40,397 nucleotides of DNA from assembly GCA_023251675.1 (NCBI GenBank), contig JAHEYJ010000010.1:1-40397 (forward strand), given 5' to 3'. A model generated the notes under the pieces. The model searched no databases and was not told the origin of the DNA. It saw only the letters and a program-made list of their open reading frames with translations. The DNA is from Bacteroidota bacterium (lineage in GTDB: Bacteria; Bacteroidota; Bacteroidia; Palsa-948). Positions 768 through 2,823 of this stretch are shown in pieces (within the stretch, counting starts at the first letter, position 1; each line of letters begins with the position of its first letter). A program made the position numbers and the translations under genes.

Positions 768-2240
768 TTATTTGGGATTCCCGAAGGTATCATGGGAGTT
801 GCCGCCATAGTGTTCCGGCGCATCTTTTTTCTCAAAATCATTCGACTGCACCGTTCTCGCATGAAGTTTCATTTCCCAGTTTGCATCATGCGTTTCGCCC
901 AGGGCATCTGAATGAAGTATCTGGTAATTGTTGGTTACCAGGTCCCTGCTGTAAAAAACAAATTGCTTATTTGTCTGGCTCGGATTTAATTTGCTCTTAT
1001 CTACTAATTTGTAATACAACCATATTTCATAAGGATACGCGTTGGGTTCGCTGGGTGCTTCTTCCCGCTTATCAGGAGCTCCGTATTGAAGGAAAATCCT
1101 TCCACGGTCCGTTTCATATCCCCGGTAATTAAAAGTCCCGAATTTTGCATTCACTGCTTTAACCAGCTGGTAATATTTAGTCCACTCTTCTTCCGGTGTA
1201 AGTGCCGCTCTGGACTGCCAGAAATTATAAAAGAACTGCTGCATTAATTTTGTATCCGCCAGTTTAAGCTGGGTATTAATAAAGTCTTTTTCGGATTCGG
1301 AAGCAATGGGACGTAATGATTTAATAAAATCAGCAAGCGTGTCTTTGCCGTTTATCCGGGAAGCAAACGTATTCTCGATCGTTACGCCGGACAGATCTGC
1401 CATATCCATTTTTGCATTGGGATTCTTGCGTTGAAAGAAAACTTTCTTTTGAGCAACAAGTTCATTGTTCTTGTTTCTGCAATCAACTACTAAATTAAAA
1501 TTGCCGCTCGGAAGGTTTGAAATATTAAATTTTGATAAAAGAAGGCCGACCTCGCCTGTCGTTTCGCGTTTAAACGCCGTGAACTTAGAAAGCATCTTCT
1601 TGTTCTCATATCCTTCAATGTAATAATTCATGAGGTATTTTTCGTTCTCACCAAGCAGTGTTTTTGTATTGTAAACTTCTGCATAAAATAAAATCTCATT
1701 TACATCTTCCGGATAATAGAAATCAGCCATATAGGGAATCAGATCGTACCCGTTTTTTGTAACTGCGCTTTGCACATCTGATTTTATGAAAGAGGTCAGC
1801 AGTTCTATGTCAGAGATATTGATCTTATTAGACGGAAAGTCGATTGTGATCTTTTTCTTTACAGAAAATGTTTTTCCATTGATGTTCTTATCGGTGATCA
1901 TTTGTTCAAATTCATACTCACCTGCTTCAAGTGAAAATCGCTGCTGATCAATAAAGTTGGGCCGCTTAAGCGTATCATTTAACTCCGGGCTCATCAGGAT
2001 GTATTTTTTAGATGCTTTGATCTGTCCGTTCTGTGAAAAGATCGTGCCTACTTCCACCTTCCCCTGATATTTTCCTGCACTGTTTTTTACGAACGAAGCT
2101 GAATTACCAAAGACAGAAAGATACGTTTCTACATAAGGTTTATTATCTGGCGTATTGAAGGCACAATGAGAAAAATAAGCATTAATCTGGGCGTTTACTC
2201 CAGTAGAGACAAACAGCATAAAAGCAAAAACTTTTTTCAT
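768..2240 (-). CDS. GWxTD domain-containing secreted protein
   Basis: 490 aa ORF with signal peptide; C-terminal RGRIFLQYGAPDKREEAPSEPNAYPYEIWLYY typical of GWxTD-domain proteins of Bacteroidota. Confidence 0.85.
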   Translation of the reverse strand: MKKVFAFMLFVSTGVNAQINAYFSHCAFNTPDNKPYVETYLSVFGNSASFVKNSAGKYQGKVEVGTIFSQNGQIKASKKYILMSPELNDTLKRPNFIDQQRFSLEAGEYEFEQMITDKNINGKTFSVKKKITIDFPSNKINISDIELLTSFIKSDVQSAVTKNGYDLIPYMADFYYPEDVNEILFYAEVYNTKTLLGENEKYLMNYYIEGYENKKMLSKFTAFKRETTGEVGLLLSKFNISNLPSGNFNLVVDCRNKNNELVAQKKVFFQRKNPNAKMDMADLSGVTIENTFASRINGKDTLADFIKSLRPIASESEKDFINTQLKLADTKLMQQFFYNFWQSRAALTPEEEWTKYYQLVKAVNAKFGTFNYRGYETDRGRIFLQYGAPDKREEAPSEPNAYPYEIWLYYKLVDKSKLNPSQTNKQFVFYSRDLVTNNYQILHSDALGETHDANWEMKLHARTVQSNDFEKKDAPEHYGGNSHDTFGNPK

Positions 2241-2364
2241 TTGAGATAGTTTAGGCTAAAGTATCAAAAATTATGCTCACTCCTTTTCATAGTGAGCAGG
2301 TGGTTCATTTTATTTAGTAAGTGGATTAATGTTGCCTGAAGGGAAGAAAATTATATTTTTGCCA

Positions 2365-2396
2365 GCCCGAAGCGTACCCTCTCGGTACTGGCGGGC
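2365..2396. repeat. GC-rich imperfect hairpin
   Basis: GCCCG-aagc-GTACC-ctctc-GGTAC-tgg-CGGGC, nested self-complementary arms. Confidence 0.5.
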
Positions 2397-2401
2397 CAAT
2401 C

Positions 2402-2466
2402 GGAGGGATGGCAGACTTGCTCCTACGGAGGCGGTTGCCCCGTCGGGGTAAAATCGCACCGGTCTT
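2402..2466 (+). pseudogene. Degenerate 5' half of a tRNA-Ser gene
   Basis: Blocks GGAGGGATGGCAGA (2402-2415), GCGGTTG (2431-2437) and ATCGCA (2453-2458), then CCGGTCTT, match in order the acceptor, D-arm and anticodon-stem 5' strand of the intact tRNA-Ser at 2722, with two 15-nt insertions and no 3' half. Confidence 0.65.
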
Positions 2467-2472
2467 AATATT

Positions 2473-2715
2473 ATGTTTTATACATACATATTAAAAAGCT
2501 TAAAGGATGGTAAGTATTACTATGGCCAAACAAACAATTTAGAAAATAGAATTAAAAGACATAACAATGGAAAAGAAAAATCTACAAAAGGAAGAATTCC
2601 GTTTGTCTTACATTATTTCGAAGAGTATAAAACAAGGGGTGAAGCTGTAAAAAGGGAATTCTTTTTTAAAACAATCAATGGCTATAACTACCTAAAAGAA
2701 AAAGGAATAATTTAG
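2473..2715 (+). CDS. GIY-YIG nuclease family protein
   Basis: 80 aa; MFYTYILKSLKDGKYYYGQTNNLENRIKRHNNGK...F.LHYFEEYKTRGEAVKREFFFK matches the small URI-type GIY-YIG domain. Confidence 0.93.
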   Translation: MFYTYILKSLKDGKYYYGQTNNLENRIKRHNNGKEKSTKGRIPFVLHYFEEYKTRGEAVKREFFFKTINGYNYLKEKGII

Positions 2716-2721
2716 CAACCT

Positions 2722-2806
2722 GGAGGGATGGCAGAGCGGTTGATCGCAGCTGTCTTGAAAACAGCCTTGGGTAAAACCAACGGGGGTTCGAATCCCTCTC
2801 CCTCCG
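2722..2806 (+). tRNA. tRNA-Ser (anticodon TGA)
   Basis: Acceptor GGAGGGA/TCCCTCC, anticodon stem GCTGT/ACAGC with loop CTTGAAA, long variable arm TTGG..CCAA, T-arm GGGGGTTCGAATCCCTC. CCA not encoded (followed by CAG). Confidence 0.95.
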
Positions 2807-2823
2807 CAGATAAATCAAATCAG

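Follow-up and report, generated by a model that had tools for sequence, protein, structure and literature searches.

The closest functional precedent for a GIY-YIG gene lying beside tRNA genes is SegB of the phages T4 and T6, a free-standing GIY-YIG homing endonuclease of the tRNA region that cuts within tRNA genes and drives, by recombination, the tandem amplification of the unit formed by tRNA and segB (PMC13096335, and ref. 26 therein). In what that study describes of this phage protein, no tRNA isotype is favoured and hairpin-interrupted remnants of host tRNA genes are not among its features (PMC13096335). Nearest in sequence and fold to the gene analyzed here are the small UPF0213/URI-type GIY-YIG proteins (1zg2 BH0048, 1ywl, YazA), which differ in having no association with tRNA genes and in forming a separate clade. 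A gene paired with a cognate family of short palindromes is found in the RAYT transposases with their REP palindromes; these enzymes are HUH/Y1 transposases. In the genomic islands that integrate at tRNA genes by means of a tyrosine integrase, a partial direct repeat of the tRNA flanks the insert and the tRNA is kept intact. Mitochondria have double-hairpin and repetitive hairpin elements, tiny single and double hairpins of which some lie within RNA genes, those of Allomyces being without flanking duplications, and the account given of them assigns no cognate nuclease (PMC2800124).

We have analyzed a locus (Table 1) found in a stretch of 40,397 nt, referred to in its whole length as the window. 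The family to which its ORF belongs differs from SegB in being chromosomal and much smaller (80 aa), with a tRNA isotype specific to each clade and one housekeeping tRNA per ORF. SegB has a DNA-binding region beyond the GIY-YIG core, whereas the window ORF codes for a single domain and is not phage-encoded. Unlike the RAYTs, it has only PF01541 and the target is the tRNA genes. The partial tRNA repeat around an insert next to an intact tRNA recalls the tRNA islands, but the insert is here one 80-aa ORF without integrase, and 5' as well as 3' halves of the tRNA are repeated. The hairpin elements, in contrast to the mitochondrial ones, are bacterial and paired with a GIY-YIG clade.

Table 1. Features of the tRNA-Ser(TGA) locus, in positions of the window.
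Feature	Position	Strand	Remarks
Neighbouring gene	768-2240		Used as marker of the site
Promoter element of the tRNA, which we take to be the Bacteroidota-type -7 motif	2345-2362	+	Context TATTTTTG; now 5' of the remnant
Leader hairpin	2365-2396	+	GCCCGAAGCGTACCCTCTCGGTACTGGCGGGC; between promoter and remnant; folds as a stem-loop
5' remnant of tRNA-Ser(TGA)	2402-2466	+	Three ordered blocks; last base is the first anticodon base
Remnant block 1	2402-2415	+	GGAGGGATGGCAGA; aligns to intact tRNA-Ser(TGA)
Insert in the D arm	2416-2430	+	15 nt; hairpin CTCC-TAC-GGAG at 2420-2430
Remnant block 2	2431-2437	+	GCGGTTG; aligns to intact tRNA-Ser(TGA)
Insert in the D loop	2438-2452	+	15 nt; hairpin CCCC-GTC-GGGG at 2438-2448
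Remnant block 3	2453-2466	+	ATCGCACCGGTCTT; aligns to intact tRNA-Ser(TGA)
Spacer between remnant and ORF	2467-2472		6 nt
Stand-alone GIY-YIG nuclease ORF	2473-2715	+	80 aa; PF01541
Intact tRNA-Ser(TGA)	2722-2807	+	ARAGORN; Rfam 50.7 bits; starts 6 nt past the ORF stop

The original prediction had placed a GIY-YIG gene between a broken 5' half of tRNA-Ser and an intact tRNA-Ser, and the coordinates that it gave hold. What it missed is that the spacers between the remnant blocks are not random: they are two inserts, each of them with an 11-nt hairpin of 3-nt loop. The hairpin of the D arm has the same position and length in another genome of the genus (L022), and that of the D loop is similar to one half of the 22-nt double hairpin typical of the clade of the window ORF. 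The blocks themselves are identical to the intact tRNA-Ser(TGA) at 33/35 nt. With gaps the remnant scored 43.4 against this tRNA, a value that none of 2000 dinucleotide shuffles reached (maximum 29.7), while the best score to any other tRNA was 18.7, so the match is specific to Ser-TGA. No second place on either strand of the 40 kb window scored that high, the intact tRNA itself excepted. The standard tRNA covariance model, which had been proposed as a check, gave no score to the remnant even at lax thresholds, as expected because this is a half tRNA interrupted by hairpins; the comparative evidence overrides this result and the identity of the remnant is confirmed. The remnant has CACC, as the relatives do, where the window species' own tRNA has CAGC, so that the duplication is probably older than the change to CAGC. 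The intact tRNA-Ser(TGA) is the sole copy in the window genome, there is never more than one intact copy in a genome of the genus, and the GIY-YIG ORF is the only gene between remnant and tRNA. When folded as RNA, remnant and leader were no more stable than shuffled sequences (z -1.1). A group I intron or another known RNA was discarded, since Rfam gave no intron at either the gathering or the lax thresholds and the downstream tRNA is already complete.

We have followed the site through a sample of seven genomes of the genus (G000 to G006, G000 being the window genome, a fragmented assembly of 250 contigs). It was empty in G001, G002 and G005, occupied in G000, G003 and G006, and decayed in G004. 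In G001 (L040), and also in more distant families (L044, L045, L046), a single tRNA-Ser without ORF is found behind its promoter, with the -7 element directly before the intact tRNA, and the leader hairpin GCCCGAAGCGTACCCTCTCGGTACTGGCGGGC is missing from the leaders of empty sites. In G006 (L042/L035) the ORF is located between the intact tRNA and a 64-nt remnant that is the tRNA except for one hairpin insert, and in G004 (L038) the ORF has no N-terminal part and the remnant is reduced to 13-14 nt. G003 (L022) has ORF and remnant as in the window, but a different upstream gene. The comparison of these empty sites with the occupied ones (L038, L042) indicates that the remnant occupies the place, behind the original promoter, where the tRNA first stood, and that the ORF and the complete tRNA lie downstream. 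Relatives with one uninterrupted tRNA-Ser at the equivalent locus, which the original prediction had called for, do exist, and a single site has occupied and empty versions as is the case for homing genes.

The 80-aa product matched PF01541 above the cut-off (E 1.4e-14), the only domain found. Y5, Y16, G18, R26, H30 and E62 were invariant among 26 relatives, including the catalytic Tyr, Tyr/Gly, Arg and Glu of the GIY-YIG superfamily. The AlphaFold model (pLDDT 95.8) is a single compact domain, with no separate DNA-binding domain. The closest solved sequences were of UPF0213/URI type (1zg2 BH0048, 1ywl and Bacillus YazA, E 2e-8), and among folds UPF0213 BH0048 was best, followed by Slx1 and I-TevI. 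Identities at codon positions 1, 2 and 3 were 72, 73 and 40%, the third being far more variable, indicating that the protein is under purifying selection; the dN/dS was 0.06 between L007 and L022, with synonymous sites saturated. Neither PADLOC (defence systems) nor PHROG gave a match for the window ORF. A phage or plasmid origin was also considered and rejected, with only distant UPF0213-like matches and none in PHROG.

The window genome has 10 small GIY-YIG genes, seven of them located at a tRNA (Ser-TGA, Ser-GGA, Phe, Leu, Gly, Met) or at the tmRNA, each with a partial copy of its RNA gene nearby, usually across the ORF. A remnant was present at 6/6 tRNAs adjoining such an ORF versus a clear one at only 2/26 of the other tRNAs examined (Fisher about 4e-5, computed on nearly this table). 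We extended the survey to a class-wide sample of 80 genomes (loci L062-L169), giving 137 small GIY-YIG loci together with those of the genus. In 53 of them a tRNA or tRNA piece was found within 500 bp on the same strand, the massive enrichment that had been anticipated; opposite-strand matches were two, both incidental, and one further plus-strand match (L112) was discounted as it lies inside its own ORF. Three layouts appear: 5' remnant, ORF and intact tRNA; intact tRNA, ORF and 3' remnant; and remnants on both sides. A breakpoint in the anticodon is not general, and this comparison did not support, in the form proposed, that a 255-bp unit was inserted exactly there. The 5' remnants of the relatives end anywhere between nt 22 and nt 71, the ORF junction differs among them, and 3', two-sided and near-full-length second copies (L165, L150, L026) occur. 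Taken together, these variable junctions and copies suggest that the primary product probably had a direct repeat of the tRNA on each side of the ORF, and that one of the two repeats has since decayed.

Several loci depart from these layouts. At L098 (G040) there is a partial copy of the ORF 5' of the remnant, which by analogy suggests a tandem duplication of the ORF and tRNA unit as described for SegB. At L034 (G004) the ORF lies between two tRNA-Pro pieces, neither of them complete. Small GIY-YIG ORFs located at the tmRNA were found at L008 (G000:C98) and L240, and at L008 the 3' end of the tmRNA, together with the beginning of its terminator, is repeated behind the ORF. Other arrangements have no ORF. 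At L170 (G000:C144, Met) and in the tRNA-Pro part of L022 a hairpin-bearing 5' remnant, an A-rich spacer of 16-29 nt and the intact tRNA follow each other, possibly as deletion derivatives or non-autonomous copies. L203 (G000:C102) has a tRNA-Val 5' remnant with the D arm replaced by TCCGTCAGCTGACGGA, and the adjoining second tRNA-Val copy is also truncated. Finally, at L189 (G000:C210, from 8176 to the contig end) 3' remnants of tRNA-Met are repeated in tandem with a period of 141 bp, and every unit includes two hairpins as well as a copied tRNA terminator.

In a tree of 136 GIY-YIG domains, built over only about 80 alignable columns, 79 non-associated sequences formed one clade (SH-aLRT 99) that included only two associated ones, L008 (tmRNA) and L162, and almost everything outside it was tRNA-associated. 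Judged by sequence, the tRNA-located ORFs are a group apart from the ordinary URI/UPF0213-type genes. tRNA association required 10 changes on the tree (mean of 39 after shuffling, 0/500 shuffles as low), and isotype within the tRNA group 22 versus 38 shuffled (minimum 32). All Met loci (8/8, support 100/99) and all Val loci (4/4, support 99/94) formed single clades with members from different families. The Met clade takes in initiator and elongator tRNA-Met genes, which have the CAT anticodon loop in common. This fidelity of clade to isotype could partly reflect vertical inheritance, and the deep tree is poorly resolved because of the saturation of synonymous sites and the few alignable columns.

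When GTDB genomes were scanned with the Ser-type alignment, named relatives were found in Fulvivirga, Balneola, Ignavibacteria/Melioribacter, Flavobacteriia, Chitinophagaceae, Cloacimonadota, Neomarinimicrobiota (at the tmRNA) and several Patescibacteria. A tRNA or tmRNA was present within 600 bp in 43 of the 47 that were not of UPF0213 type, the other four being at contig edges; the tRNAs near named relatives were 51 on the strand of the ORF and none on the opposite one. None of the 33 UPF0213-type matches of Bacillota and Spirochaetes had a nearby tRNA. Identity of the Ser-type ORFs was 60-73% within the genus and 56-67% to distant hosts (67% between the window ORF and Fulvivirga, 65% with Melioribacter), while the neighbour gene, at 62-71% among congeners, did not exceed 50% beyond the genus. 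This flat identity, compared directly rather than by formal tree reconciliation, is suggestive of lateral spread; a donor and recipient pair with a demonstrably recent transfer was not found among the loci compared.

We consider it fairly probable that the locus is a chromosomal homing-type cassette specific for tRNA genes, with a minimal GIY-YIG nuclease as its sole gene, from a lineage that has specialised here on tRNA-Ser. The nuclease would cut the tRNA gene of a chromosome without the cassette, and recombinational repair from the donor would bring in a copy of the ORF with a direct repeat of the tRNA on either side, as the anatomy suggests. One repeat has to stay intact because the tRNA is single-copy, and the other is interrupted by short hairpins, often inside the anticodon, and trimmed, a decay that is seen at the loci described above. 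The ORF is on the strand of the tRNA behind the tRNA promoter and would thus probably be read as part of the tRNA transcript. The hairpins may also keep the repeats from recombining with each other, by which the ORF would be lost. An occupied allele has a remnant broken up by hairpins next to a tRNA copy that is still intact. The latter speaks against homing: the presumed target is not destroyed, unlike in classical homing, and self-cleavage must be limited otherwise. The small size of the protein, with no separate DNA-binding domain, and the varying ORF junctions speak against it too. Membership in the homing endonucleases is only putative, since cleavage is a prediction and the occupied allele retains an intact target.

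The hairpins themselves could be the primary mobile unit instead of the ORF, which is the main rival. The nuclease would then be the mobiliser of cognate short hairpins, a GIY-YIG analogue of RAYT/REP that puts single or double hairpins of 11-30 nt precisely into the loops of tRNA genes and of other hairpins, and the duplication of the tRNA would let the host survive. We regard this as rather unlikely, although much of the hairpin data fit it. Palindromes reached 5.06/kb beside tRNA-type ORFs versus 0.71/kb at 400-800 bp (about 7 times more), some of them being terminators, and short hairpins occur in the remnants at the loops of the D, anticodon and T arms. In alignments with the intact tRNA, 69 of 111 inserts were in loops (expected 32%), mostly without duplication or loss of the target, the junction of anticodon bases 35 and 36 being a hot spot (12/111, expected 1.5). 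These counts are approximate, as the automatic alignment, run with lenient gaps, breaks up hairpins and displaces positions by 1-2 nt, and some 3' remnants beside other tRNAs were mis-assigned; p-values for insert position are optimistic, orthologous loci not being independent. The anticodon is a hot spot across clades for hairpin insertion, although not, as had been proposed, for the junction of the ORF.

The type of hairpin also tracks the clade of the ORF. In the Ser-type clade of the window ORF, 15 of 24 inserts were a 22-nt double hairpin (consensus TCCC-GAA-GGGA-TCCC-TTC-GGGA) versus 0/96 in other clades (p about 3e-13), and members of this clade located at tRNA-Glu (L212) or tRNA-His (L259) still bear it. 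Inserts at Arg/Leu loci carry CCTGCCTGCCGGCAGGCAGG, Arg(cct/ccg) loci have a hairpin of 28-29 nt after nt 16, and the Patescibacterial Gln loci a 30-nt double hairpin. A partial Mantel test controlling for isotype supported the association (0/2000) with a modest r of 0.18. A cognate palindrome family per clade, as in RAYT/REP, is thus strong in the Ser clade and weaker in general, pairs of different isotype having few k-mers in common. Copies of the 22-mer with up to 3 mismatches are dispersed (0-8 per genome) and are missing from G001, a genome without small GIY-YIG genes; however, most are away from tRNAs and G005 has copies without a tRNA-type ORF. At the same 3 mismatches the double hairpin was not found in the window itself, because the remnant there has only single 11-nt hairpins. 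One hairpin of L213 is nested, inserted in the loop of another, and the branched-DNA nuclease Slx1 is among the solved structures nearest in fold; against this, we know of no GIY-YIG enzyme that catalyses insertion. A broader proposal, which we put forward tentatively, is a two-part mobile system unlike any described, formed by a stand-alone GIY-YIG domain and a cognate single or double hairpin of 11-30 nt, which would act through structure and not through a long sequence. The protein would insert hairpins, or provoke their insertion, into tRNA-gene loops, with the hot spot inside the anticodon, and the duplicated intact tRNA would sustain the host; these units would have spread through Bacteroidota, Ignavibacteria, Cloacimonadota and Patescibacteria. 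Among hairpins observed elsewhere, the window genome contains the 16-nt palindrome TCCGTCAGCTGACGGA 15 times, at least half of these copies being in tRNA remnants, and in L294 and L303 (G087) a perfect 22-nt double hairpin interrupts the loop of a stem (CTCCCG...CGGGAG) that is not near any tRNA.

The tRNA loci might also duplicate by recombination and gather palindromes with the ORF as a bystander between the pieces, an improbable explanation to which the ORF-less remnants (Met in C144, Pro in L022, Val in L203) and the array of C210 lend some weight. It is strongly disfavoured by the presence of a single GIY-YIG subfamily, always on the tRNA strand, with isotype tracked across families and phyla, and by the rarity of remnants at tRNAs without ORF. 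Slightly more improbable is that the protein acts on the tRNA as RNA, as an anticodon nuclease or quality-control enzyme co-expressed with it, for example a tRNA-paired toxin. The clade-specific tRNA, the anticodon hot spot and the likely co-transcription suggested by the layout would agree with this, but the adjacent tRNA is the only copy and normal in sequence, the tmRNA is also used (L008, L240), there is no PADLOC match, and the duplication and hairpin insertion at the DNA level are left without explanation. Chance adjacency or an assembly artefact, which the 250 contigs of the window genome might evoke, is practically negligible, as the structure recurs in the complete chromosome CP096135 (L216) and in the genomes of isolates, Fulvivirga lutimaris among them, and 0/2000 shuffles matched the remnant.

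As far as the open-access literature was searched (subscription papers fell outside the search), there is no account of chromosomal tRNA-associated GIY-YIG genes, and this cross-phylum family of tiny nuclease genes, with one particular tRNA gene each, is previously undescribed; a 2006 survey of the GIY-YIG superfamily mentions tRNA only for a TrmH-type fusion. Under the homing-type reading, it would represent a large group of probably selfish nucleases of minimal size, which live on essential tRNA genes present in one copy and whose scars can be read in the sequence. Many small genes annotated as 'GIY-YIG nuclease family protein' gain from it a target that can be tested; it also accounts for pseudo-tRNA fragments in these genomes, and offers a bacterial counterpart to the mitochondrial double-hairpin elements. 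With an enzyme of 80 aa and a substrate of 86 bp, each step of the pairing of ORF with tRNA and with hairpin is directly testable. The window genome also has small GIY-YIG genes of another kind (L001, L003 and L004, 94-111 aa) that are not at tRNAs and sit among cacttcgag...ctcgagaagtg palindromes.
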